Assembly (NCBI RefSeq): GCF_030063185.1
Contig: NZ_JASISP010000001.1
Coordinates: forward strand, 508,534-572,533
From: Arthrobacter sp. H35-D1
GTDB taxonomy: Bacteria; Actinomycetota; Actinomycetes; Actinomycetales; Micrococcaceae
Direction of reading: 5' to 3'
DNA: 64,000 bases
Under the pieces are notes generated by a model. The model saw only the letters and a list, made by a program, of their open reading frames with translations, did not search any database and was not told the origin of the DNA. Position 1 is the first letter of the stretch. Each line of letters begins with the position of its first letter. Of this stretch, positions 51,953 through 64,000 are shown in pieces. A program made the position numbers and the translations under genes.

Positions 51953-53098
51953 CTATTCGCAGCCAACCCCGTCGCCGTCGCGGTCGAACTTGGGCTCGAA
52001 GCCGGGCTGGCCCGCGCGAATGGGGGCCGCCCCCGCGGCCCGAACGGCTGAGCAGTTTTGGTAGAAGACATCAGTTGCCGGCGGCTGAACCACCGGAGCA
52101 GGGGGAGCAGCTGGTGGTGCCGGCTGTGCCGGCTGCGGCGCGGCATCATCCGCTGCTTCCGCGGGCACTGGGGCAGCAGGCGGCACAACAGCTGGCTGCT
52201 TGGGCTCGGCCGCGGGAGGTATCTGCTCGCTTGGCACGTCAACACCCGCGCAGTTCCCGAGGACCGTGGCCATGGCGTCATGTTCTGCCTGGGTCACCCA
52301 CAGCTCGTAGTCGGCCTTGACCGCGACCTGCCGGGCCACATACTCGCAACGGTAGGCCTTGTTCGGCGGCAGCCACGTGGCGGCATCGCCGGCGCCCTTC
52401 CTTTGGTTGCTGGGACCGTCAACGGCCAACAAGTTCAGCGGATCGTTGGCAAAGGCCTTGCGTCGATCCGGCGCCAGCTGTTGGGCTCCCTTTTGCCAGG
52501 CGTCGTTCAGCGCCACGACGTGGTCGATCTGGACCTTTGCGCTGTCGGGGCCGCGCACAAATGAGATGGTGCCGGCCGTGTAGGGATCCGACAGCACCCC
52601 GGTCAGCACCACGCAATCGCGGGTGCCCGGCTTGAACGTCTTCGCCGTCAGGTCGCGCTCCAGGATGTCATTGCGAGTGTCGCAGCCGTTGCGGTCCACG
52701 TCCGACCATGCCGGGCCGAACTCTTCGCGGCTGTACCCCGTTTTGGGTGCCCTGCCCTTGACGGGAATGGTCTTCAGGACCTCCAGCGCCTTGTCCGCCA
52801 CAGGGGACTGCGCGTTCGCGGCCAGGTCGGCGCCATCAGCGTCGGAAGCGTCATCGCCGTCCACGGGTGCCATGATGGCAACCGTGGGGCTTGGCGTTGG
52901 TGCGGGACTGCTTGGTGCACTAGTGTGCGTGGCCAGGTCCGACGCCGGAGCCGCCTCGGGTGCCGGGGCGCCACCGCACGCCGTGGTCGCCACAAGGACG
53001 GAGGCAAACACTGTTGCCATGATGAAATCGGTGGCTCCGAAAGAGCGGGTGCTGCGAGCAGGCGACAAGACGGAGATCTCCCCGGGATAGCGGTTCAT
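51953..53098 (-). CDS. Secreted HNH (DUF1524-like) nuclease with excalibur domain
   Basis: This is a 381-residue protein. An N-terminal signal ends in a lipobox-like VATTACGG near residue 41, so it is secreted or lipid-anchored. The central domain (~110-275) is a DUF1524/HNH-type nuclease: VQIDHVVALNDAWQKGA (catalytic His), then FANDPLNLLAVDGPSNQRKG and PPNKAYRCEYV. A Pro/Ala-rich linker follows. The last ~38 residues are an excalibur calcium-binding-type domain (FYQNCSAVRAAGA ending DRDGDGVGCE). Such proteins are thought to degrade extracellular DNA for nutrients or in competition. It is adjacent to the Ter cluster, but 165 bp separate them. Confidence 0.9.
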   Translation of the reverse strand: MNRYPGEISVLSPARSTRSFGATDFIMATVFASVLVATTACGGAPAPEAAPASDLATHTSAPSSPAPTPSPTVAIMAPVDGDDASDADGADLAANAQSPVADKALEVLKTIPVKGRAPKTGYSREEFGPAWSDVDRNGCDTRNDILERDLTAKTFKPGTRDCVVLTGVLSDPYTAGTISFVRGPDSAKVQIDHVVALNDAWQKGAQQLAPDRRKAFANDPLNLLAVDGPSNQRKGAGDAATWLPPNKAYRCEYVARQVAVKADYELWVTQAEHDAMATVLGNCAGVDVPSEQIPPAAEPKQPAVVPPAAPVPAEAADDAAPQPAQPAPPAAPPAPVVQPPATDVFYQNCSAVRAAGAAPIRAGQPGFEPKFDRDGDGVGCE

Positions 53099-53263: not shown

Positions 53264-54070
53264 TCAGCGGATCTCGGCCAGGATGCGGCGCAGGATTTCT
53301 TCGCCCGCCATGACCCCGCGCACCGAGGTGAGGCGAAGATGGGAAGCCAGGTATCCGGCGTCGTGCAGTTCCCCGTGCAGGGGGCGGAAGGCGAGGGTGG
53401 CGCCTTCGAGCATGTCCTGGTCCAGGAGGGAGTCGCCGGCGGCAATGACGGTGTCCGCCCCGGTGCGGCGGGCAACTTCCGCAAGGGCCCCGGACTTGTT
53501 GATCGGCAGCGGGACGCAATAGAGCTTCCTGCCTTGCACCGAAACGCTCCAGCCGGCTTCCGCGCACAGCTGTCCCAGCTCGGCCAGGAAGGAGCCGGGC
53601 ATGGCTTCCCTGTCCACGATGGCGTAGACAAACAAGTCCTCCGCCCGTCGCAGGCGCAGGATCCACGGGGAAAAGTCCGGGTTCCCAAGGTGCGCTTCGA
53701 TGTGTTCCAAGGGCGCACAGGCAGCGGCCATCCGTGCCGAGAGCTTCTCATTCCACGCCGTGTCCGGCACACCGCGGTGCAAAAGGACCCCTCCGTTGGA
53801 GGTGATGGCGTACTCGGGCACGGGACCGGACAATTGCACACGCTGGTACTGGGCCTGAGTTCGGGTGGTGACGGGCACAAACGTCGCCGCGTCCTTGACA
53901 GCCAGCAGATGCTCCTGGGCGTCGCGGGTCATGAACGAGAGGGGAGCGCCCTCATAAACTTCGGCGACGACCAGGGCCGGGGCATCCTTGTCCGCACCCG
54001 TGAGCCAGAGGGCGTTCTTGGAATAGATGAGCGTGCGGTCGAGGTCGCAGGCAACGAGGGTGGGGCTCAT
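53264..54070 (-). CDS. HAD-family phosphatase of the Ter biosynthetic module
   Basis: This is a 268-residue HAD hydrolase of the sucrose-phosphatase/Cof type. Motif I is LVACDLDRTLIYS, motif II the Ser-Asn in YAITSNGG, and motif IV AAGDSLLDQDML. The Lys of motif III is in PINKSGALAEVARR. Its ATG overlaps the stop of the upstream gene as ATGA, which fixes the start; the longer frame is a read-through of the neighbouring gene. HAD phosphatases recur in this module beside StiP- and TRSP-type proteins. It probably removes a phosphate from a phosphoribosylated product, although the substrate is not established. Confidence 0.85.
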   Translation of the reverse strand: MSPTLVACDLDRTLIYSKNALWLTGADKDAPALVVAEVYEGAPLSFMTRDAQEHLLAVKDAATFVPVTTRTQAQYQRVQLSGPVPEYAITSNGGVLLHRGVPDTAWNEKLSARMAAACAPLEHIEAHLGNPDFSPWILRLRRAEDLFVYAIVDREAMPGSFLAELGQLCAEAGWSVSVQGRKLYCVPLPINKSGALAEVARRTGADTVIAAGDSLLDQDMLEGATLAFRPLHGELHDAGYLASHLRLTSVRGVMAGEEILRRILAEIR

Positions 54071-55236
54071 GCGTTGTGCACTGCCTTGCCGTCGGCACCC
54101 ACGGCGCTCTTGTCGAATTGCGGATGGATGAGACCGACACAGCTGTACGGCAGGCCCACAACTTCCTCCACGGGGACCCTGCGCTGTTCGGCCAGCAGCA
54201 GCACATGCGCCACCTCGGCCCGGGCATCCGGGTTCACGAGGACGCGCCACGGCACGCGGCGCAGCAGCACCCTGGTCGTTTCGCCCACGCCGGGCTTGAC
54301 CAAATTCACATTGTTGATGCCGTACTCGGCGCTGATCCGCTCAACGGCCTTCCACCCCGTCCACGTGGGTTCCGGAGCGGCCGCGCGATGGGCAGCCACC
54401 TGCTCTTCAACGGCCTGCAGGATGCTGCCAAAGTGGGCGGAAATCGCATCCAGGAAGTCGTTGGAGACGTCGTTGGAGGCCAGCTCCGCGTAGAACTTGG
54501 CACCATGAAAGTCATGCGGAGCAATGTGGTCGGTGTTGAAGACCGTGCGGGAGACAAGACCGGACACCGTGGAATTCAGGCAGGCCGAGGGGATCAGGTA
54601 GTCCTCGCGGGTGCCGAACATGGACACGCAGTGGCCGGGGTCGGCCAACACGGCAAGATCGTCCTGGAAGCGCACACCGTCGCTGGCGGCAAACTTGTCC
54701 AACGCGCTGCTGAGCTCGCCGGAGATGGCGCCCTTGCCCGTCCAGCCGTCAACGAAAAGTATCCGCGCTGGATCAAAGTTGGTACCAAGGTAGCGCAGGG
54801 CCGTCTGGTCCAGGCCCACCCCGCGAACGATGCTCATGGTGAAATGGGGCAGTTCCAGGCCGTGGACGTGCCAGGCCCAACGGCGCATCAAAATACCAAT
54901 GGGCGTGCCGGCACGCGCCAGGGACACCAGCACGGGCTGGTTCCCGCGGGCTTCCAGGGCCAGTTCGGTCACCACGCCCACCGCCGTGGCGATCCGCAGC
55001 GCAGACCGCTCGACCGCCTGCGTGTACAGGGCCTGGTATTCCTTGCTGGGCGAGTACTCCACCGGCAGCGATTCAGCGTAGTTCGCGGATCCCGACTGGA
55101 TGGCGCGTTCGCGCTCGGCGGTGGGGGCCTCCAACGCGACATGGCTCAAGTCCTTCAAGAGCCAGCGGACCTCGCCGGGTGCATAGGAACCGAAATCCGG
55201 GCCCGTCAGGGGCTGGGGAAGCGGGAACTGGCTCAT
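54067..55236 (-). CDS. StiP-type phosphoribosyltransferase-like protein of the Ter module
   Basis: This is a 389-residue protein of the family annotated cysteine protease StiP, which sequence analysis treats as a phosphoribosyltransferase (PRTase_1) with a C-terminal Pelota-like domain. The visible core includes NQPVLVSLARAGTPIGILMR and ARILFVDGWTGKGAISGEL, where the second segment resembles a PRPP-binding loop (VDxWxGKG). The C-terminal ~90 residues (RVLLRRVPWRVLVNPDARAE, then VPVEEVVGLPYSCVGLI) fit a Pelota/L7Ae-like RNA-binding fold. Both ends overlap neighbours by 4 bp. The protease name is probably misleading. Reaction unknown. Confidence 0.83.
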   Translation of the reverse strand: MSQFPLPQPLTGPDFGSYAPGEVRWLLKDLSHVALEAPTAERERAIQSGSANYAESLPVEYSPSKEYQALYTQAVERSALRIATAVGVVTELALEARGNQPVLVSLARAGTPIGILMRRWAWHVHGLELPHFTMSIVRGVGLDQTALRYLGTNFDPARILFVDGWTGKGAISGELSSALDKFAASDGVRFQDDLAVLADPGHCVSMFGTREDYLIPSACLNSTVSGLVSRTVFNTDHIAPHDFHGAKFYAELASNDVSNDFLDAISAHFGSILQAVEEQVAAHRAAAPEPTWTGWKAVERISAEYGINNVNLVKPGVGETTRVLLRRVPWRVLVNPDARAEVAHVLLLAEQRRVPVEEVVGLPYSCVGLIHPQFDKSAVGADGKAVHNA

Positions 55237-56813
55237 GGTGCGTCCTTTGCTGGATTGCTGGAGGTGGCGGGCGGGAGATCGGCCGGAAGCAGCACCACGA
55301 CGACGTCGTCGGCGGCCGTTGCCATCGCCACGGCCAGTGGTTCAAGCTCGGCGCCGGGTGCGCGTGCAAGGACATCGCGGCGGCCGGTTCCGGGTTCCGG
55401 GAAGAGCACAATGGTGCCCGGACGCCCGTGCGTTCCGCTGAGGTTGTAGGCAAAACGCGCGCCCGGCCCGTCAAGGGTCGCATCGTGGCTGGCAAAGGCC
55501 AGCGCCCCGGAAATGGCGTAGTCGTCCCTATCGACGGGGACGATGGGCGAGCGGGTCGTGGTGGAAAAACGCACTTGGGCATCCGGCAGCAGCCCGGCCA
55601 GCACGTTGGCTGCGGCCAAGGGCAGGAACATGTTTTCCTCGCAGCCCAGCACCACGAACGGGCCTTGGCACTCTTGGGCTGCCAGCAGAGTTGCCACGTG
55701 CCCGGCGACGGCGGCAATGTCGGCTTCCGCCGGAGGCGCCGCGTTGCCGAAGCGGTCGCTGCGCACCGGAACCATGTCTGCCTCCGTCAGTTCAAGCATG
55801 GCCAGCCGGCCGGAGGCGGCGGGTGGGAACGGGGCGCCGGAAGCGGCAGCACCAACACCAGCATCGACGGTAGCAGGAGGGGGGTGCGGCAGGGCCTTAA
55901 TCAGCGCCGCGGCGCGGTCCAAAATGCCATCTCCCAAGCTGATTTCCCCGGTCCCCAGCGCCGTCACGGCAATCCGGCAGCCCAGCTCGGCGGCCAGGGC
56001 GTCAAAGCGGGCACGGTCGGCGGCACTGCGCAGGTCGATCAGGGCGGCCACCACATACACCGGGTGCCGAACAAGGGCATGCAGTTCACGGATGGTGTTG
56101 ATGACGGTCGACCCGGTGCTGAACTCGTCGTCGACCAAAACCACCGGACCGTCGCCGTCGAGCCAGTGCGGGTCGGTGGGCACCATGGCGTGCGAGGTGG
56201 CATGCGAATGCCCTTCCTCAAAGCCCGCCACCGCACGGATGCCGGGGGTGGCGTGACGGGTGGAGTGAATGTAATAGGCACCCAAGGCATTGGCCACCAA
56301 GCGCCCCAGGCCCGTGGCGGTCTCGGCGTAGCCAAGCACGACGGCGTTGGGCACCCGGGTGCCCAGCCCCGCCACCGCGTCGCCCAGGAAGGCCAGTGCC
56401 CGGACACGATCCTGGCCGTCGGAGCGCAGCGCCGTGGTCAGTGCCGCGGTGGCTGCTTCCAGCGGAAGGGAGGTTCCGGCGTCGTGCATTGACCCTGGAC
56501 AGGATGCTGGTTCCGTGCCGTTGGGCGACGACGACAGCTCGCGGGCAACAAAGGCCCCCAACAAGGTGCCGGCGGCGATGACCAAGGCGGGTTCGGTGGG
56601 CACGTGCTTGGCGAGCACGTTCGAGACCAGCAGATGGGCGCGCTTCGGGTTGCGGCGCAGGGCCAAGCCCACCAAGTCCTGGACGGCGACGGCGCTGTCC
56701 GGGTCGGAGTGGATGTGCACGTCAAGCTGCCCGGCCACGAAGCCGCCAGTCCAGCCCGTGCCGCCAGTCCAGCCCGTGCCCCGGGCAGTCCGCAATGGTT
56801 CGGAAGTGCTCAT
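55233..56813 (-). CDS. Phosphoribosyltransferase with TRSP domain of the Ter module
   Basis: This is a 526-residue protein. After a short repetitive N-terminus (GTGWTGGTGWTGG), residues ~30-300 form a PRTase_2-type domain with the PRPP loop VVLVDDEFSTGSTVINTIREL. The C-terminal half (about 345-525) is the TRSP domain that is typical of Ter-linked enzymes (FVVLGCEENMFLPLAAANVL; FAYNLSGTHGRPGTIVLF). The pair is predicted to use PRPP in making a nucleoside-like metabolite. The start at 56813 overlaps the lyase stop as ATGA. The N-terminal repeat comes from an exact 18-bp tandem duplication. Confidence 0.85.
   Translation of the reverse strand: MSTSEPLRTARGTGWTGGTGWTGGFVAGQLDVHIHSDPDSAVAVQDLVGLALRRNPKRAHLLVSNVLAKHVPTEPALVIAAGTLLGAFVARELSSSPNGTEPASCPGSMHDAGTSLPLEAATAALTTALRSDGQDRVRALAFLGDAVAGLGTRVPNAVVLGYAETATGLGRLVANALGAYYIHSTRHATPGIRAVAGFEEGHSHATSHAMVPTDPHWLDGDGPVVLVDDEFSTGSTVINTIRELHALVRHPVYVVAALIDLRSAADRARFDALAAELGCRIAVTALGTGEISLGDGILDRAAALIKALPHPPPATVDAGVGAAASGAPFPPAASGRLAMLELTEADMVPVRSDRFGNAAPPAEADIAAVAGHVATLLAAQECQGPFVVLGCEENMFLPLAAANVLAGLLPDAQVRFSTTTRSPIVPVDRDDYAISGALAFASHDATLDGPGARFAYNLSGTHGRPGTIVLFPEPGTGRRDVLARAPGAELEPLAVAMATAADDVVVVLLPADLPPATSSNPAKDAP
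56743..56778 (-). repeat. 18-bp in-frame tandem duplication in the TRSP gene
   Basis: Two exact adjacent copies of an 18-bp unit (56743-56760 and 56761-56778) encode a doubled GTGWTG hexapeptide near the N-terminus of the phosphoribosyltransferase. It keeps the frame and may be length-variable. Confidence 0.85.
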
Positions 56814-58003
56814 CGCATGCTCGCTTCGAGGTGGTCCACAAAGGTGACGTTGGCGGCGGAAACACCAAAGGCGTCGGCCCGCAGCAGGGTGCGTTGGGCC
56901 CACGACTGGTGCGGTTTCATTTCATTCATTTTGTTCCCGTAGGGGGATGCTGCGGCGCCGCCGGCCGTGTTCCCGGCAATGGCCACGGCGTCGAGGTATT
57001 CCTCATGACTGACAACGCTCATGGCATGGACCAAGGCAACATGGCTGGGGTGGATGACGGTCTTGCCCAGCAAGCCGTTGGCCAGGTCCAACTCAATCTC
57101 ACGGATAAGGGTGTCGAGGTTGTCCGTCATGATGCGCCGGCGCAGTTCCTGCTCGTGCGCCCCCACGAAGGGTGTGGCACGCAATTGCGGGCGCAAGACG
57201 CGCTCGGTGTTGGAGAAGTGTTCCCAGACAGGACCGGAGATGACAAAGCCGCCGTCGGGCCGGCCCAGCACGTTGACAATGTCGCCGATGACCCCCGCCA
57301 CCACATTGACGTCGTAGATGGTCAGGTCGCGGGAGCGGCGCAGGCCGAAGGCGCTGGACATGTCCGTGGCGCCGAGCCGCACCGACAAGATGTCGTCCCG
57401 GTTGGCTGCGAGCAGGGAGTAGATGTTTGTCAGCGCCGCCGCCCGGGTTTCCACGTGGATGATGGGCGAGGACTCTAGAATCGGCATGACGCGCAGCCGG
57501 TGTGAGGGAGTGCCGTCCGCCGCAGGGGCACCGTCAAGCCCCAACTCCTGCTGCACCACGTGCAGCGCGGCCAGGAAGTCCGCACCCGTGCCTTGTTCAT
57601 TGTCGAATTTTGGCAGCACAAATCCGCTCAGCAGGGCGGTGGCGGGACCGGCACGCCTGGCCAGTCGGAGCAGCTGCTCGGGGGTGCGGACCCGGACAAA
57701 CAGCAGGGGCAGGTCGTGTTGCTGCCCCGAGAGCGAGGTCAGCGCCGCAATCACGTTTTCTTCGGCCTGCGGGACATCTGCGTCCGCAATGGAATCCTCG
57801 AGGCAGAGCACCATGGAGACACAGCCAAGATCGCGCTGGCGCAGCACATCCTTGACAAGGTCAGGACGGTTCGCGGGGGTGTAGAGGGTGCCGCCGAGGG
57901 CAACCGCCAGCAGTTCCGGGGCGCTCCGGGCAGTCAGCTCCACCGGCAGGCGGTGGAAAAGCTGCGCGGCTGCAGGGTCGGTTAGGGAACGAAAATGTCG
58001 CAT
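56810..58003 (-). CDS. CitE-like C-C bond lyase of the Ter module
   Basis: This is a 397-residue HpcH/HpaI-CitE-like TIM-barrel protein. Landmarks: LYTPANRPDLVKDVL (phosphate-binding first strand), CVSMVLCLEDSIAD (acidic metal ligands), LLFVRVRTPEQ (substrate Arg), VLPKFDNEQG and RVMPILESSPIIHVE (catalytic Glu). It matches the Ter-associated C-C bond lyase family, somewhat longer than citrate lyase beta chains. It would make or break a carbon-carbon bond in the predicted metabolite. The start is at 58003 (MRHFRSLTD), 54 bp after the upstream gene, and its stop overlaps the next start as ATGA. Confidence 0.85.
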   Translation of the reverse strand: MRHFRSLTDPAAAQLFHRLPVELTARSAPELLAVALGGTLYTPANRPDLVKDVLRQRDLGCVSMVLCLEDSIADADVPQAEENVIAALTSLSGQQHDLPLLFVRVRTPEQLLRLARRAGPATALLSGFVLPKFDNEQGTGADFLAALHVVQQELGLDGAPAADGTPSHRLRVMPILESSPIIHVETRAAALTNIYSLLAANRDDILSVRLGATDMSSAFGLRRSRDLTIYDVNVVAGVIGDIVNVLGRPDGGFVISGPVWEHFSNTERVLRPQLRATPFVGAHEQELRRRIMTDNLDTLIREIELDLANGLLGKTVIHPSHVALVHAMSVVSHEEYLDAVAIAGNTAGGAAASPYGNKMNEMKPHQSWAQRTLLRADAFGVSAANVTFVDHLEASMR

Positions 58004-58057
58004 TGGCCCTTTCGTGCGGTGGTTGGAAGGCGAATCATGGCCCGCCGGCAAAATGAG

Positions 58058-59023
58058 CTAGCGACCGTAGGCGGTGGCGGGTGCCTTGTGCGTCATGGAA
58101 AAATCAAATTCCTGCCAGATCTTCACGTCCGGCCAGTCGCGCGGCACGGGCTCTGCCCGCAGCTCCAGCACGTTGCCAATCCTGTGCACCAACAGCACCA
58201 TCTGCGTTCCGTCGGCGGCGGGCGGCAGCGCCACCGTGTCGCCGGAGAACAGCTGGACCCCCATGGGGGCGCTGCTGCGGTTGATGAATATGGCGCGGCG
58301 CATTTCACGCACATGGCGCAAGGACACCAGCGCCTCCCGGCCGTGGTAACCCACCAAGTCCCGGTTTCCTGCGGTCGTGACGGGGGTGCCGGCCTTGTGT
58401 CCGTCAACTGTTTGTCCGCCTGTCACCCCGCGCACATTCTCCCAAGCGATGGCCGTGCTTCCGCTGACCACCAAGGTGCCAACGGCAGACTGAACCGCCG
58501 ACAATCGCAGCACCCTGTCAACGAAATTCAGTTCGTACACGTCTTCAATGCCGGGCGCCGGGAACAACAACTGGACCTCGCGGTCCTCCAACGTGGCCTT
58601 CTCCCGTCGGGCAGCGAGCGTCTGGGCCCGTGCGCCCGTTGAAAACGCCCTGGCGGATGCTCCTGACGACGCAGTGGACCTGGATGGTGCGGTGGGCGTG
58701 GATCTGGAGGACGACGCCGTGGCGCTGCGACCCAGCACCAGTCCGGGCGACCGCGGGGCACCGGCCTGGTCAACCGGCGGGGCTTGGCGTGCGGACGCAG
58801 GTCTGGTTGAGGCTGGGCTGGATGGCGCGGTTGCCGCCGGTCGAAGAGTCAAGGACTGTGCCGACTGGGCTGATTGTTGCGGGACGCGTTCCTGCTGTGG
58901 GCGCTCTTGCGGCACGCTCTGTTGCGGGGCGGCCGCTGCCGAGGATGCCGGTTGGGCGCGGCCGGGCTTGAGCCGGCGACGCAAAAAAACCAGGTCGGTG
59001 CGTGGAGTTGAGGGAACATTCAT
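58058..59023 (-). CDS. Ter-cluster protein of unknown function with low-complexity N-terminus
   Basis: This is a 321-residue protein that I do not recognise. Residues 1-150 are low complexity: basic, then rich in Gln, Pro, Ser and Ala (VPQERPQQERVPQQS), so probably disordered. Residues ~150-320 look like a compact beta-rich domain (DREVQLLFPAPGIEDVYELN, then GNRDLVGYHGREALVSLRHV and TQMVLLVHRIGNVLELRAE). It might be a remote relative of the TerD beta sandwich, but no metal-binding motif is visible. No signal peptide or membrane helix is seen. It lies between a TerD-like gene (9 bp away) and the enzyme module, in the same direction, so it belongs to the cluster. Confidence 0.72.
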   Translation of the reverse strand: MNVPSTPRTDLVFLRRRLKPGRAQPASSAAAAPQQSVPQERPQQERVPQQSAQSAQSLTLRPAATAPSSPASTRPASARQAPPVDQAGAPRSPGLVLGRSATASSSRSTPTAPSRSTASSGASARAFSTGARAQTLAARREKATLEDREVQLLFPAPGIEDVYELNFVDRVLRLSAVQSAVGTLVVSGSTAIAWENVRGVTGGQTVDGHKAGTPVTTAGNRDLVGYHGREALVSLRHVREMRRAIFINRSSAPMGVQLFSGDTVALPPAADGTQMVLLVHRIGNVLELRAEPVPRDWPDVKIWQEFDFSMTHKAPATAYGR

Positions 59024-59032
59024 GTCGGGGCG

Positions 59033-59584
59033 CTACAGCCTGATTCCGTAGTCCTTGGCCACGCCGGCCAAGCCCGTGCTGTAGCCCTGCCCCAGGGCGC
59101 GGAATTTCCAGTCAGACCGATGCCTGTACAGTTCACCGAAAATCATGGCGGTGACGGACTCCAGCTTTTCCACGGACAGGTTGAAACGCACCAGTTCCCG
59201 GTCTTCAGCCGTTGCCACGCGGATGTGGGCGCTTCGCACGGCGGCGAAGGTGCCGTTGCCGCGGAGTTCGGGATCCACATAGGCAAAGAAAATGATCTTT
59301 GCAACGTCCTCGGGGACCAGCTTCAGCGCAACGTCGATCTGTTCCTGATCGGCGTCGCCAACGAAGGTGACGGAGGAGTCGGCGCTGACAAGTTGGTTGA
59401 AAAACACAAGGTGATCGTTGGAAACAGCCTTGTCGTCGCCGTCGCACATCACCACAAACGGGACCAGCTCAGCCTGCGGGCCGTGGCTGGGGATGGCGTC
59501 CCAGCCCATGCCAACCACCACGTTGTCCAGACCGGGATTTTCTGCAGTCAGGGCAGCATTGGCCCCTGCCACTAGTGCTGCCAT
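59033..59584 (-). CDS. TerD-fold protein lacking canonical metal-binding residues
   Basis: This is a 183-residue protein. The TerD core is clear: VVVGMGWDAIP, HLVFFNQLVSADSSV, the strand IIFFAYVDPELRGNGTF and the end YRHRSDWKFRALGQGYSTGLAGVAKDYG (two segments). Canonical TerD proteins bind calcium through a DLDAS motif and an acidic GEGEGDDE loop. Here these positions read ELVPF and DADQEQ, so the site appears to be lost or changed. It could be a structural partner of the canonical paralogues encoded upstream. Its start overlaps the end of the 185-aa gene by 13 bp, consistent with coupled translation. Confidence 0.85.
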   Translation of the reverse strand: MAALVAGANAALTAENPGLDNVVVGMGWDAIPSHGPQAELVPFVVMCDGDDKAVSNDHLVFFNQLVSADSSVTFVGDADQEQIDVALKLVPEDVAKIIFFAYVDPELRGNGTFAAVRSAHIRVATAEDRELVRFNLSVEKLESVTAMIFGELYRHRSDWKFRALGQGYSTGLAGVAKDYGIRL

Positions 59585-60129
59585 TGTTGGCCCTCCAAAC
59601 GCAATGGGTCCCTTTCAGAAACGGGTTGTTGAAGTTGCAAGGCGGCGTCCTGGGCGGAGAACTTGTCCGCCAGGAAACGCCCGTGCGTGGAGAGTTCCTC
59701 CACGGCGCCAATGCGAATCTGGTTCAGCAGATCCGCAAGGGTTTGTTCCAGGGTTGCCAGCTGTTCGGCGAACATCAACGTGGCAGCGGACTCTTCGTGG
59801 TGGTGCGCCGGGGGCAGTCCCAAATACGCCTGCAACGGTGTGGGCACATAGCTGCAGATCATGGCGTTGAGAAGCACCCTTTGCTCCGTGGAACAGCCCC
59901 GGATGCTGATGTCGGCGACGGTGTCGCGCATGAGGTCGCCCAAATGTCGCAGCTGGGACATCAGCAGGGGAGGGAGCTTGCTTCCGGACCTGCGCACGGA
60001 AGCACGCAAACTGTCCACGGCGGCACCCATCTCGGCAATCTCCTCCGCCACCGGATCTGCACTAGGGGGTGCAGGCGCTTGAGGCGCCGAAGCCCCGCCA
60101 AACCTGCCCCCCATGAAACGGCCAATCAT
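59572..60129 (-). CDS. Ter-cluster hypothetical protein, 185 aa
   Basis: This is a 185-residue protein between the TelA gene and the TerD variant. After a Gly/Ala/Pro-rich start (MIGRFMGGRFGGASAP), it is helical and charged (about 28-185) with probable coiled coil (ATLMFAEQLATLEQTLADLL). A conserved-looking SYVPTPLQAYLGLPP turn lies mid-protein. No membrane helix is seen. I do not recognise a family with certainty, but similar helical proteins commonly accompany TelA in such clusters. A function as a scaffold with TelA is only inferred from position. Confidence 0.72.
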   Translation of the reverse strand: MIGRFMGGRFGGASAPQAPAPPSADPVAEEIAEMGAAVDSLRASVRRSGSKLPPLLMSQLRHLGDLMRDTVADISIRGCSTEQRVLLNAMICSYVPTPLQAYLGLPPAHHHEESAATLMFAEQLATLEQTLADLLNQIRIGAVEELSTHGRFLADKFSAQDAALQLQQPVSERDPLRLEGQQWQH

Positions 60130-60177
60130 TGCCCTACCCTTGCCTCGTCGTCTCTCGCGTCGTCAGTACTGCTCAGA

Positions 60178-61371
60178 CTACTCGCGATCGGACTGGCGTG
60201 AACGCTCCAGGTAGGGCTTGGCCTTGGCCAGTCCGTCCTCGAGGGCGTGCACGGTGCCTTCCATGTTCTGGGCGGCGGAGGCCCGGAACGTGTCGATGGC
60301 ATCCATCGTCTCGAAGACGTTGTCGAACGCTTTTTGCAAAGTTTCCACACTGACCCCGGAACTGGCGGCCTGCTCGTGGATGCGCACAGTCTGGTCCTTG
60401 AGCATCTCGGACGTCTTCAAGATCATGTTGTTCGTGGTGGTGTTGATGGCGTCGATCTGGTCCAACACCATCTTCTGGTTGGCCAGGGCCTGGGCCACGA
60501 TGACAGCCGTGCGCAGGGCCGAAATGGTGGTGGTGCGCGCCCGGTCGACTCCCTTGATCAGCTCAACGTTGTTCTTGCGGATCAAATCCATGGCCAGGTA
60601 GCCCTGCACCGAGACGGCCAGCTGGGTCAGGATGTCCTGGTGGCGCTGGCGGATGGGGAAGAGAACATCTGCTTCGAGCTTCTGGGCCTGCTCAGTTGCA
60701 CCCGTTGCACGCGTGGCGTCGATCTTCTCAACGCAGGCGGCATCCAGGGCCTTGGCAAACACGGCGTATTCGCTCAGGCTCTGCATGGTTTCCCACATCT
60801 TGACCTTTTCCCCCGCGAGGGAGGCATTGTCCTTGAGGAGTTCGTCCTGGCCGGCCATGAGCGACTTGATGATCGCGTCGAGCTGAACCTGCGCCGACTC
60901 GTACTTCTGGAAGTACTTGGCCATTTTGTTGCCGCCGGGGATAAAGCCGAGAATCTTGCGCCCCACACTCAGGTCGGCGTTGTTGGGAGTGAGGTCCTCA
61001 ACGGTGCTGCGCAGATCGTTCAGGGTGCCGGCAACCTGGGCCTGGGCGCCATTGCCACTCTTCTTGGCCCCTGACACGGAGGTGGTGGAGCGCTCCAACA
61101 TACGGCTGGAGGCGTTCGAGGAGGACGTCATTTCCGTCCCGGCCAGCTTGGAAATCCCATCAACTTTCGTGGTGAACTCGGGGCTGCGGGCGTCAAACGT
61201 GGCGATCTCGGCAATGAATTCCTTCGCCTGAACGTTGATCTCGCTCTGGCGCTCCGCCGGCACTGGAACCATGCCGGGGGCTTCGTCCGCTGCAACAATT
61301 TCCGGGGAGTCGGGAGCCTTCAGCACAAGGGCGGTTTCGGCTTCTGTGGGAGGAGTCAAAGGTGAAGTCAT
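60178..61371 (-). CDS. telA: TelA family toxic-anion resistance protein
   Basis: This is a 397-residue soluble, mostly alpha-helical protein. It matches TelA/KlaA: GGNKMAKYFQKYESAQVQLD, then MAGQDELLKDNASLAGEKV, then FPIRQRHQDILTQLAVSVQ and a long coiled-coil C-terminus. TelA proteins are associated with tellurite resistance, cell-envelope stress and phage-related phenotypes, but their molecular action is unclear. The gene follows a terD copy at 152 bp. That gap is occupied by the second copy of the GC-rich repeat. Confidence 0.93.
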   Translation of the reverse strand: MTSPLTPPTEAETALVLKAPDSPEIVAADEAPGMVPVPAERQSEINVQAKEFIAEIATFDARSPEFTTKVDGISKLAGTEMTSSSNASSRMLERSTTSVSGAKKSGNGAQAQVAGTLNDLRSTVEDLTPNNADLSVGRKILGFIPGGNKMAKYFQKYESAQVQLDAIIKSLMAGQDELLKDNASLAGEKVKMWETMQSLSEYAVFAKALDAACVEKIDATRATGATEQAQKLEADVLFPIRQRHQDILTQLAVSVQGYLAMDLIRKNNVELIKGVDRARTTTISALRTAVIVAQALANQKMVLDQIDAINTTTNNMILKTSEMLKDQTVRIHEQAASSGVSVETLQKAFDNVFETMDAIDTFRASAAQNMEGTVHALEDGLAKAKPYLERSRQSDRE

Positions 61372-61394
61372 TGGGAGATCCTATTTTCGAATAG

Positions 61395-61526
61395 CAGGAC
61401 AGGGAAGGAGTGGTTGGGCCCACGCACCAGGGACGAGTTTGTTGGGCCCACATATGGGCCCACACCTCCGAGGGGCCCCAATTCCAGACGCGCCAGCGGC
61501 TGGATTTGGGGAGGAGGTGGGGACTA
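61395..61526. repeat. Palindrome-rich intergenic repeat, copy 2
   Basis: This copy fills the gap between a terD stop and the telA start. On the minus strand it begins with TAGTCCCCAC at the terD stop codon, then GGGGCCCCTCGGAGG, then GTGGGCCCA twice and GTGGGCCCAACCAC. The blocks match copy 1 at 2560-2690 in order and orientation relative to the host genes. Three GGGCCCA/TGGGCCC palindromes give hairpin potential. Confidence 0.65.
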
Positions 61527-62105
61527 GCCCAGCGGTACGCCAAAGTCGGTGGCAATGCCGGCCAAGCCCGCGGCGTAGCCCTGGCCCACCGCCTTGAACT
61601 TCCACTCTGCGCCGTTGCGGTAGATTTCTGCAAACAGCATGGAAGTTTCCGGGGCAGCGTCCTCGCTCAGGTCAAAGCGCACCACTTCGGCATCGTTGCT
61701 TTGGTTGACCACGCGGCAGTAGGCTCCGCGAACCTGGCCAAAGTTCTGCCCGCGCTCATCAGCTTGGTCGATGGAGACCACAATGACCACGCGTTCGACG
61801 TCGGCGGCGACCTTTGTCAGGTCGATCAGGATTTGCTCGTCGTCGCCTTCGCCCTCGCCGGAACGGTTGTCGCCAAGGTGCGTGACAGAACCGTCCTTGG
61901 CTGCTGGCTGGTTGTAAAAAATGAAGTCCTCGCCCGTTCGCACCTTGCCGGTGGCGCCGACAAGGAGTGCCGAAGCGTCCAGGTCAAACGCTTCGCCAGT
62001 GGTGGTGCGAGGATCCCAACCCAAACCAACCAGTGCCTGTTGCAGGCCGGGGTCGGTTTTGGTCAAGGAAAGATTGTTGCCTTTTGCAAGTGTCAGTCCA
62101 GCCAT
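61524..62105 (-). CDS. TerD family calcium-binding stress protein
   Basis: This is a 193-residue canonical TerD protein. Key features: [14 protein letters not shown] at the start, [20 protein letters not shown] (first acidic site), [20 protein letters not shown], and the acidic loop [15 protein letters not shown]. It ends with [20 protein letters not shown]. TerD folds as a beta sandwich that binds two calcium ions and acts at the inner face of the membrane in resistance to tellurite and other stress. It is a close paralogue of the next gene upstream (62181-62762), both 193 residues long, which points to a tandem duplication. Confidence 0.95.
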
Positions 62106-62180
62106 GAAATTTTGTCCTTACCTTGTGAATGGTCAATAAGTGCCGGTGCGCGCCTTGCGCCGCGCACCGGCAGCGGGATG

Positions 62181-62762
62181 CTAGCCCAGGACGATGCCGA
62201 AGTCGGTGGCGATCCCGTGCAGTCCGCTTGCGTAGCCCTGGCCAACGGCGCGGAACTTCCACTCGGCGCCATTGCGGTAAATCTCGGCGAAGACCATCGT
62301 TGTCTCCGATGCGGCATCTTCGGAGAGGTCGTAGCGGACAATCTCCTGGTCGTTTTGCTGGTTGACCACTCGGCAAAATGCGTCCCGGACTTGGCCAAAG
62401 TTTTGGTGTCGGGCTTCGGCCTGGTCGATCGAGACCACAATGACAACACGGTCGATGTCGGCGGCGATGGCTGCGAGGTTGACCAGTATCTGCTCGTCGT
62501 CGCCTTCGCCTTCACCTGTGCGGTTGTCGCCCTGGTGGACTACGGAACCGTCCTTGGACTCCAGCTGGTTGTAAAAGATGAAGTCGTCATTGTTGCGGAC
62601 CTTGCCGCTGCTGGTGACAAGGATGGCGGAAGCGTCAAGGTCGAACTCGTCGCCACTGGTGGTGCGCGGATCCCAGCCCAAGCCGATCATGGCCATTTGC
62701 AGGCCTGGGTCAGCCTTGGTCAGGGAAAGGTTGCTGCCCTTGGAAAGTGTCAAAGATGCCAT
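62181..62762 (-). CDS. TerD family calcium-binding stress protein (TerD/TerE-like)
   Basis: This is a 193-residue TerD protein, the middle of three canonical copies. It has KGSNLSLTKADPGLQMAMIG, DEFDLDASAILVTSSGKV, FIFYNQLESKDGSVVHQGDN and the acidic loop [15 protein letters not shown]. All calcium-ligand motifs are kept. The ribosome site AAAGGAG precedes the ATG at 62762. It is separated by 75 bp from the downstream copy and 70 bp from the upstream one. The gaps are too long for translational coupling, so copies may be tuned separately. Confidence 0.95.
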   Translation of the reverse strand: MASLTLSKGSNLSLTKADPGLQMAMIGLGWDPRTTSGDEFDLDASAILVTSSGKVRNNDDFIFYNQLESKDGSVVHQGDNRTGEGEGDDEQILVNLAAIAADIDRVVIVVSIDQAEARHQNFGQVRDAFCRVVNQQNDQEIVRYDLSEDAASETTMVFAEIYRNGAEWKFRAVGQGYASGLHGIATDFGIVLG

Positions 62763-62832
62763 GAAGAATGAACTCCTTTAATTCTCGAACCGTCGTTAAA
62801 TGCGCTAAAACGAATGAATACTTGTGGCGACC

Positions 62833-63426
62833 CTACAGTGCGTTGGCCGCCGGCTGGATCAAGTCCATCACAGTGCGGCCGTTGGCGCGGTCGCCGATGG
62901 CAGTAAACTTCCAACCGGTTCCTTCGCGGGAGACCTTCGACATGATCATTGCAGTGTGCGTCCCGGCATCGGTCAGCTGGAAACGTGCCACTTCAGGCGA
63001 GCCTGCCGTTGAGTCGTCAACCAGGCGGCAGAAGGCGTTTTCAATGGTGTCGAAGGTTTGGCGGCTGTAGCTGCTGATGACGAACACGATTTGTGCAACA
63101 GCGGGGGAAACGGTCGACAGGTCAACCAAGATGGTCTCGTCGTCGCCTTCGCCCTCTCCGGTGAGGTTGTCACCGGTGTGCTGCGTGGAACCGTCCTTGC
63201 TTTGGAGCTGGTTGAAGAACACCGTGTCAACGGCCTTGCCGGCGCCATCAAAGAAAATGGCCGACGCATCCAGATCGACGTCGGCTGGCTTTTTCATGCC
63301 GCCGAACAGGCCGCGCTTGACGGGGGCTGCCGTGTCCCAACCCAAGCCCATGCGCACCCGGGTGAGGGCGGCGCCGTCGTTCTTCTTCAGTGAAAGGGCT
63401 TCGCCCTTTTGCAAACTAAGTCCCAT
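62833..63426 (-). CDS. TerD family protein with Lys/Gly-rich insertion
   Basis: This is a 197-residue TerD protein that begins MGLSLQKGEALSLKKND. The metal-site motifs are intact ([28 protein letters not shown]). Between the conserved Trp-Asp and the first acidic site is a short insertion (VKRGLFGGMKKPAD) absent in the two neighbours. The C-terminus (GWKFTAIGDRANGRTVMDLI) also diverges from them. It therefore resembles the TerZ/TerX-like branch more than TerD/TerE. The start chosen has AAAGGAG. The longer frame from 63492 overlaps the upstream stop and is not family-like. Confidence 0.92.
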   Translation of the reverse strand: MGLSLQKGEALSLKKNDGAALTRVRMGLGWDTAAPVKRGLFGGMKKPADVDLDASAIFFDGAGKAVDTVFFNQLQSKDGSTQHTGDNLTGEGEGDDETILVDLSTVSPAVAQIVFVISSYSRQTFDTIENAFCRLVDDSTAGSPEVARFQLTDAGTHTAMIMSKVSREGTGWKFTAIGDRANGRTVMDLIQPAANAL

Positions 63427-63475
63427 GTTGTTGTTCTCCTTTGAATTGGATGGCAAAAATTTTGGTGGGTTGTTT

Positions 63476-64000
63476 CTATGTTGAAAGTTCATCCACTTTA
63501 GGCTGTTCCGCAGCTGCCAATCGTTTGTTGCGAACGATCGAGGACAGGAAGGCGGCTCCGATGAAGAACACCCCGATCAGCCCCGTGATCACCTCATTGA
63601 CTTCGAGGCTGATGGTCAGCAGCAGAATAACGGCCAGGGCGCCAATGGCCCAGTGTGCGCCGTGGTCCAAGTATTCGTAGTCGTCCAGGGTGCCTTCGCG
63701 GACCAGGAACACCGTGAGTGAGCGGACGAACAGTGCGCCGATCAGGCCCAGGCCCAGGGCGATGATGATGGGGTCGGAGGTGATGGCGAAGGCTCCGATG
63801 ACGCCGTCGAACGAGAAGGACGCGTCAATGACCTCGAGGTAGATGAACAGCATGAACGCGGCCTTGCCGACCGCCTTGCCCACGCCCTTGTTGTTCTTCT
63901 TGGCGATTTTCGCCGCCTCGGCCGACTCGTGTTCGTCCTCGTCGTCGTCGACATTGAACATCTCGCCCAGCCCATTGACGAGCATGTAGGTGATCATGCC
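63476..64000 (-). CDS. DUF475/TerC-like membrane protein, truncated by the window end
   Basis: The C-terminal ~175 residues of a multi-helix membrane protein are visible; the frame stays open at the right edge, so the start lies outside the window. A cytoplasmic acidic stretch (NVDDDEDEHESAE) is followed by helices that carry FIYLEVIDASFSFDGVIGAFAI. This Asp-containing signature is shared by TerC and DUF475 proteins, which are linked to metal handling (Mn) and tellurite resistance. It is the most upstream gene of the minus-strand Ter cluster in view and probably supplies its membrane component. Confidence 0.88.
   Translation of the reverse strand, partial: GMITYMLVNGLGEMFNVDDDEDEHESAEAAKIAKKNNKGVGKAVGKAAFMLFIYLEVIDASFSFDGVIGAFAITSDPIIIALGLGLIGALFVRSLTVFLVREGTLDDYEYLDHGAHWAIGALAVILLLTISLEVNEVITGLIGVFFIGAAFLSSIVRNKRLAAAEQPKVDELST

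Follow-up and report, generated by a model that had tools for sequence, protein, structure and literature searches.

A ter stress locus of Arthrobacter sp. H35-D1 with a conserved four-enzyme module that looks free of ATP-grasp

Introduction

What might a four-enzyme biosynthetic module make when it is encoded within a ter stress locus, and how could its product be linked to the membrane and sensor proteins encoded beside it? We addressed this question in a 64,000-nucleotide stretch of DNA from Arthrobacter sp. H35-D1 (hereafter the window; positions 508534-572533 of the 745861-base contig NZ_JASISP010000001.1, from a draft assembly of 4.46 Mb in 86 contigs), where a block of twelve genes runs on the minus strand from position 64585 down to 53264 in the order terC-terD1-terD2-terD3-telA-U185-terD4-U321-lyase-TRSP-StiP-HAD. 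A Ter-associated module for a nucleoside-like metabolite was reportedly described by Anantharaman, Iyer and Aravind in 2012, and the module is of an already known kind, because Pfam carries a family named 'ATP-grasp in the biosynthetic pathway with Ter operon'. Passages of more recent papers describe Ter systems as making nucleoside or nucleotide signals by means of phosphoribosyltransferases (PRTases) and HAD enzymes, with TerB and TerD as possible sensors (PMC7824862), predict that the cluster makes a nucleoside-like metabolite while calling its relation to the TerC complex unclear (PMC8115787), and repeat that prediction (PMC12054061). The product is thus predicted, but no identification of it was found in the literature searched.

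A sequence-only reading of the window had recognised the four enzymes and suggested that, with no ATP-grasp in the window, their pathway may be shorter or complemented elsewhere; it left U185 (59572-60129) and U321 (58058-59023) unnamed. The kind of module being known, the additions made here are its ATP-grasp-free form in this family, a fusion of its two PRTases, the unsupported protease label of one of them and a hidden protein of predicted TerD fold. Our preferred reading, on which we are evenly divided, is that the locus joins a membrane and sensor set to a short pathway dependent on phosphoribosyl pyrophosphate (PRPP), probably giving a small ribose-containing signal.

The enzyme module stays with ter genes

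The true Ter lyase was found in 17 of 148 genomes of the Micrococcaceae (five of the seven of the window's own genus and twelve in four other genera), being defined as those with E < 1e-100 among PF15617 matches present in 130 of the 148; the remaining 113 matches, which were weak and to general HpcH/CitE-like proteins, were dropped. In all 17 lyase-bearing genomes StiP was also found, together with four or more TerD matches, and the two genomes of the own genus that are without the Ter lyase have neither StiP nor the TerD matches, which bears out the link to Ter that the sequence-only reading had drawn from family knowledge. When gene order was compared across relatives, as that reading had proposed, the twelve genes stood in the same order in all 16 Micrococcaceae loci uncut by a contig end (the window and 15 others); L055, the 17th, is truncated where its contig stops, and what can be seen of it agrees. 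The 33 actinobacterial loci compared (these 17, 11 of the Streptomyces group, four of another family of the class and a Tsukamurella plasmid) all keep the order lyase-TRSP-StiP-HAD and all have a TerD-family match on the stretch; a routine separation of the enzymes from ter genes is therefore not what is found in them, though a Rhizobium plasmid has TRSP and StiP without an annotated ter gene close by. The StiP cut-off was passed in 19 of 396 genomes of a phylum sample, 16 of them strongly, and in 21 of 248 genomes of an order sample. Of 591 confirmed loci in the genome_contigs set, the 80 with the best scores were kept; these are mostly from Streptomyces, some of them short, and form no census, and the lyase was seen in 77 of them and TerC in 66. 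The enzyme module is patchy across genomes yet stays with ter genes.

Family assignments of the first two enzymes were well above Pfam cut-offs, both for the CitE/HpcH-like C-C bond lyase (56810-58003, the ATG at 58003 being taken as start; PF15617, E 8.8e-112) and for the PRTase_2-TRSP phosphoribosyltransferase (55233-56813; PRTase_2 2.9e-58, TRSP 6.7e-20). The HAD phosphatase (53264-54070), of HAD-IIB or sugar-phosphatase-like type, gave weak family scores below the curated cut-offs (S6PP 5.5e-4, HAD-IIB 1.1e-4) and a match to the trehalose phosphatase 6cj0 (E 1.7e-6). To the 33 actinobacterial rows the alignments added rows from plasmids or phage, five each for TRSP, StiP and HAD and three for the lyase. 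The HAD residues D9-x-D11-x-T13, T68, K192 and G212-D213-x3-D217 were invariant in 38/38 rows, and we take them for the four motifs of HAD enzymes. TRSP keeps its canonical PRPP loop, DDExxTG, without change over 38 rows, and charged residues of the lyase were invariant over 36. Degeneracy of these motifs, a doubt raised by the sequence-only reading, is thus absent from HAD and TRSP, whereas the loop of StiP is a variant with one acidic residue.

The genes of the cluster, all on one strand as had been noted earlier, are closely packed. ATGA overlaps join the lyase to TRSP (56813-56810), TRSP to StiP (55236-55233) and StiP to HAD (54070-54067), and the serial 4-bp overlaps that the sequence-only reading had placed at 56810, 55233 and 54067 are confirmed if internal ATGs serve as starts, the longest open reading frames beginning upstream of the likely real starts. 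Such overlaps are ordinary by chance, since six of the 26 adjacent same-strand gene pairs in the window could have one (by a simple caller), three of them being these junctions; conservation of the junctions, not their mere presence, is what exceeds chance. A 4-bp junction of lyase and TRSP (with an ATG, GTG or TTG start) is possible in 17/17 Micrococcaceae and 26/33 actinobacterial loci, and one of StiP and HAD in 16/33. TRSP and StiP form a single open frame in 21 of the 33 loci and overlap by 4 bp in eight, the other four having other overlaps (L042, L045, L047) or an unresolved junction (L048); in the 80 genome_contigs loci they were a single frame in 77 and separate in three. Because both are encoded in one frame in 21 loci, the two PRTases probably act together. 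The earlier proposal that the four products are made in fixed ratio holds up for these two through their fusion in relatives, but a 4-bp overlap alone does not show a ratio. Upstream, U185 and terD4 overlap by 13 bp, and gaps of 9 bp and 54 bp separate terD4 from U321 and U321 from the lyase, a spacing so tight that the stretch from U185 onward reads like one transcript; promoter- and terminator-like sites in the locus were not above shuffles.

The pathway looks free of ATP-grasp in the window's lineage

No member of an ATP-grasp family was found among the cluster proteins of the window, in line with the sequence-only reading, or among the seven upstream proteins of flank L005 that were included in a scan of ten, that reading having suggested a search upstream of position 64000. 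The sole PF15632 match in the window's genome scored 29.3 bits against a curated cut-off of 29.1 and was rejected as a Ter ATP-grasp, NCBIfam giving it as the large subunit of carbamoyl-phosphate synthase. PF15632 matches were present in all 17 lyase-bearing genomes of the family, above the cut-off in 8/17; the 17 best cover about 60 of 131 positions and lie in frames of 1079-1524 amino acids, and those of the 16 relatives are read as carbamoyl-phosphate synthase, an identity checked for the window's genome alone. An 18th match, below the cut-off, lies in a 352-amino-acid frame in G104. The PF15632 search gave no credible Ter-type ATP-grasp in the 16 family relatives, and homologues of four ATP-grasp queries were not found at E 1e-4 within at most 10 kb (less on shorter contigs) on each side of the best 80 of 591 loci. 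In modules of this kind an ATP-grasp is frequent but not universal, none being annotated in the ME3 phage or Rhizobium loci either. Because none was found upstream, elsewhere in the genome or credibly in relatives, the window's lineage appears to have a shorter pathway; of the two options offered earlier this one has survived, while complementation from elsewhere met only carbamoyl-phosphate synthase. As a separate observation, in the Streptomyces-group genomes G307 and G480 (L105-L106, the two neighbourhoods scanned) a PF15632 gene lies near a calcineurin-type phosphoesterase gene and far from the Ter cluster.

StiP is probably a PRTase-fold protein

StiP (54067-55236) matched its Pfam family (PF11202, 6.1e-100) and PELOTA_1 (8.2e-35), again well above the cut-offs, and its predicted model (pLDDT 81, built from 29 sequences) shows a type-I PRTase-like domain, with residues of about 61-264 matching PyrR and HGPRT proteins (best Foldseek E 9.4e-4), followed by a C-terminal Pelota/L7Ae-like domain, with residues of about 298-371 matching L7Ae-fold K-turn binders such as YbxF. 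The latter domain suggests contact with RNA. The loop of the first domain reads D[GS]WTGKG in 38/38 rows and so departs from the canonical PRPP loop with its two acidic residues; in a 15-row alignment, position 166 is I for T in L060. The model supports StiP as a PRTase-fold protein rather than a protease, in agreement with the PRTase named in the sequence-only reading.

Could StiP regulate instead of catalyse? The top 13 Foldseek rows are PyrR-type proteins, among them 1ufr (TT1027), which we take to be PyrR-type. Together with the likeness to K-turn binders and the variant loop DGWTGKG of the window, whereas the loop of TRSP stays canonical, they would suit an RNA-binding, nucleotide-sensing PyrR-like regulator that senses PRPP or the product and perhaps binds the operon's own message. 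We regard this as unlikely: the frame shared with TRSP in 21 of 33 loci is more natural for an enzyme subunit, a search of two stretches turned up no credible Rfam element (each gave one match, sub-threshold and chance-like), and a leader between U321 and the lyase would have to fit into gaps that measure just 6-118 bp across 17 loci.

The top VIA-align rows for StiP were 8a0c and 8a0m, which are the capsule polymerase Bcs3 of Haemophilus influenzae type b (Hib) within its CriT part (Z 11.2 over 202-204 residues). A passage on Bcs3 describes CriT as PRTase-like, moving ribose-5-phosphate from PRPP and working with the HAD-type phosphatase CrpP (PMC10299916). By analogy, and as far as that passage goes, Bcs3 resembles TRSP/StiP and HAD in pairing a PRPP-using PRTase-fold transferase with a HAD-type phosphatase, and is the best experimental precedent for that logic, silent on the substrate here; unlike the window's enzymes, CriT and CrpP serve polymer synthesis within one multi-enzyme protein. 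The enzymes of the window might by the same logic, in which a sugar or polyol is ribosylated from PRPP and then dephosphorylated by HAD, make a ribofuranosyl O-glycoside for the envelope and not a free nucleoside-like signal, as would suit the sugar-phosphatase-like HAD and the linkage to the envelope-type proteins TerC and TelA. This seems to us quite improbable, since the cluster proteins scanned include no glycosyltransferase, flippase or polymer gene product, Foldseek prefers PyrR and HGPRT for StiP, and the lyase and the Pelota-like domain would be left unexplained. We know of no Ter genes, lyase or Pelota-like domain that go with Bcs3.

That StiP is a stress-induced cysteine protease, a name borne by PF11202, by NCBI products and by plasmid annotations, is scarcely credible, because no cysteine is invariant or nearly invariant in 15 homologues and the model matches PRTases; the unsupported label sits in many public annotations.

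A hidden protein of predicted TerD fold lies before the lyase

Upstream of the enzymes, terC (63476-64585, or L005:3476-4585) crosses the window end, its 3' part (63476-64000) lying within the window, and encodes a DUF475/TerC membrane protein (DUF475 E 3.3e-123, TerC 2.9e-17). It is followed by TerD1 (62833-63492; TerD domain from residue 23, so that the true start may be internal), TerD2 (62181-62762), TerD3 (61524-62105), TelA (60178-61371; Pfam E 3.3e-86), U185 (conserved, of no known family), the TerD-family protein TerD4 (59033-59584) and U321. The acidic motifs [FVI]DLDAS and GDNxxGxGxGDDE, presumably calcium ligands, are kept by TerD1-3 in 48/48 sequences (16 loci each, the TerD2 and TerD3 rows of L055 having been left out where TerD4 was matched again at the contig end), are absent from TerD4 in 17/17 loci, and were not seen in 17 U321 sequences.

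U321 begins with a conserved basic motif, continues in a disordered tail rich in Ala, Pro and Ser, and ends in a domain encoded at 58061-58582. Family scans placed it in no known sequence family, a Pfam scan of 17 members giving a stray TruB_C match in two only, and membership of the TerD family (PF02342) by sequence was rejected (hhalign probability 0.3%, no profile match). A model of the 174 residues at its C-terminus, for which 17 relatives were used (pLDDT 84), aligned by VIA-align with 9a6r_B (SCP2; Z 11.2), which we take to be a TerD-family protein, and with 3ibz (9.6) and 2kxt (7.5), the next row scoring 4.9; Foldseek gave no match at E < 0.001. As profile search and Foldseek found nothing, it is from the predicted model and its VIA-align matches that the TerD reading comes, and what is predicted is a TerD-like fold, not membership of the sequence family. 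Compared with the TerD structures 3ibz and 2kxt, U321 is alike in predicted fold and differs in having no detectable sequence similarity, no acidic motifs and a long disordered N-terminal tail.

The company that these proteins keep points to the TelA/TerD side of the locus. In the order sample U185 was matched in all but one of the 21 genomes with StiP and in 27 StiP-less ones, many of the matches being weak and with an internal stop, and tblastn found a match beside telA in the 21st (G715). Relatives of U321 occur in 4/248 order-sample genomes beyond the two Micrococcaceae, in every case near a TerD gene whose best match is to TerD4 (L193 and L194 by a narrow difference) and in two of the four loci directly before the lyase. 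Because they occur both with and without StiP, U185, and probably U321, belong to that side. The idea that U185 is an XpaC-like partner of TelA (PF10112) found no support, with no match in the search of its own genome or in a 17-member Pfam scan.

Proposed mechanism

We propose that TerC, TerD1-3, TelA, U185, TerD4 and U321 would form the membrane and sensor set. The CitE-like lyase would make or trim an acceptor, to which TRSP and StiP, as a hetero-complex or, in many relatives, a fused protein, may move ribosyl-5-phosphate from PRPP; the families, the loop, the predicted fold and the fusion are what this second step is built on, and its reaction is the conjectural part. HAD, with its intact motifs, would then take off the phosphate from a presumed substrate of this kind to give a nucleoside-like or ribofuranoside product, and, a family search having found none, no Ter-type ATP-grasp ligation would follow in the window's lineage. 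TerD-fold proteins coupled to TerC and TelA may sense the product, TerD4 and U321 being, with their acidic motifs absent, the best candidates to bind something besides calcium. The whole system would answer envelope or metal stress.

A more specific form of this, in which TerD4 and U321 are a pair of TerD-fold receptors blind to metal, their ligand being not calcium but the ribosylated product or else the enzymes, and GLxL/SLxL motifs in the U321 tail dock TerD1-3, we hold to be doubtful. These motifs, which we assume to resemble the first strand of TerD, number 1-5 per protein against shuffle means of 0.01-0.38, a modest excess, and their count is not above the shuffle maximum in 10/17 U321 proteins, the window's own included. 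If true, such receptors would join metabolite level to the TerC/TelA complex, and so supply the missing link from Ter enzymes to membrane proteins.

Several observations weigh against the proposed pathway to a ribose-containing signal. StiP may be a PyrR-like regulator, not a catalyst, because its loop has one acidic residue. A U321 relative is present in G640 without a detected StiP, and in G715 it lies about 400 kb from StiP. An ATP-grasp gene is annotated beside the enzymes on three plasmids, two of them from Klebsiella and one from Pseudomonas (the Klebsiella protein tested matches PF15632 at E 1.5e-37), and because these proteobacterial loci keep it the product may differ between systems. 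Since a PF15632 protein (117-128 bits) is present in seven of the 11 StiP-positive Streptomyces-group genomes, unlinked, its gene lying far from that for StiP or on another contig, the absence of ATP-grasp is not extendable to all Actinobacteria. The Klebsiella enzymes also appear unneeded for tellurite resistance, because, in the passage concerned, terZ-F alone conferred it on E. coli (PMC8115787).

Against the known Ter module for a nucleoside-like metabolite, the window has the same families (PRTase_2-TRSP, StiP-Pelota, C-C bond lyase and HAD) beside terC, terD and telA, and differs in being without a Ter-type ATP-grasp, in the TRSP-StiP fusion of many relatives and in the extra U185, TerD4 and U321 of its block. 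Gene order differs too, the lyase-TRSP-StiP-HAD of the window standing against ATP-grasp-TRSP-(HAD-like gene)-StiP-lyase on the Klebsiella and Pseudomonas plasmids. Streptomyces-type ter clusters (L083-L094, without L087) are like the window in having lyase-TRSP-StiP-HAD beside terC and terD, but TRSP and StiP are fused in 11/11 of them, and TelA, U185 and U321 gave no tblastn match on these stretches. No paper on the TRSP-StiP fusion or the ATP-grasp-free form was among the matches listed, the founding 2012 paper lying outside the comparison. A lineage whose pathway appears cut down to four enzymes, and in many of whose relatives the two PRTases are fused, is a simpler place to seek the metabolite than the plasmid systems that bear an ATP-grasp. 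U321, with a predicted TerD fold missed by sequence models and a gene immediately before that of the lyase, offers a concrete candidate for what connects enzymes and membrane.

Neighbouring genes and other loci

Directly downstream of HAD, at 51953-53098 on the same strand, lies a gene for a protein with a GmrSD C-terminal domain and Excalibur, a homologue of which also follows the cluster in L041, L044 and L050. In five loci, which all belong to genus g7, telA and U185 are separated by a divergent insertion, and in the one scanned (L051, 6178-9362) it holds a VWA/solute-binding-type gene and a 398-amino-acid gene without family. The Rhizobium plasmid locus (L058, 10714-13970) has TRSP and StiP followed by a 249-amino-acid gene, and the annotation of its 25-kb stretch shows no ter gene. 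An unverified 'Bacteriophage sp.' entry from human faeces (L060; MT836648.1) gave matches to TRSP, to StiP and, three times, to TerD, and holds a lyase in convergent orientation; it resembles a bacterial ter cluster deposited under a phage name. In a distant actinobacterial lineage, a divergent StiP-like gene (24-26% identity) lies near several TerD genes in three loci (L098-L100; G436, G276, G500), none of which gave a lyase match. In L049 (12879-13418; G106) a divergent TerD-like gene is contained in a 571-amino-acid open frame upstream of terC, and long TerD frames are also present in G098 and G121.

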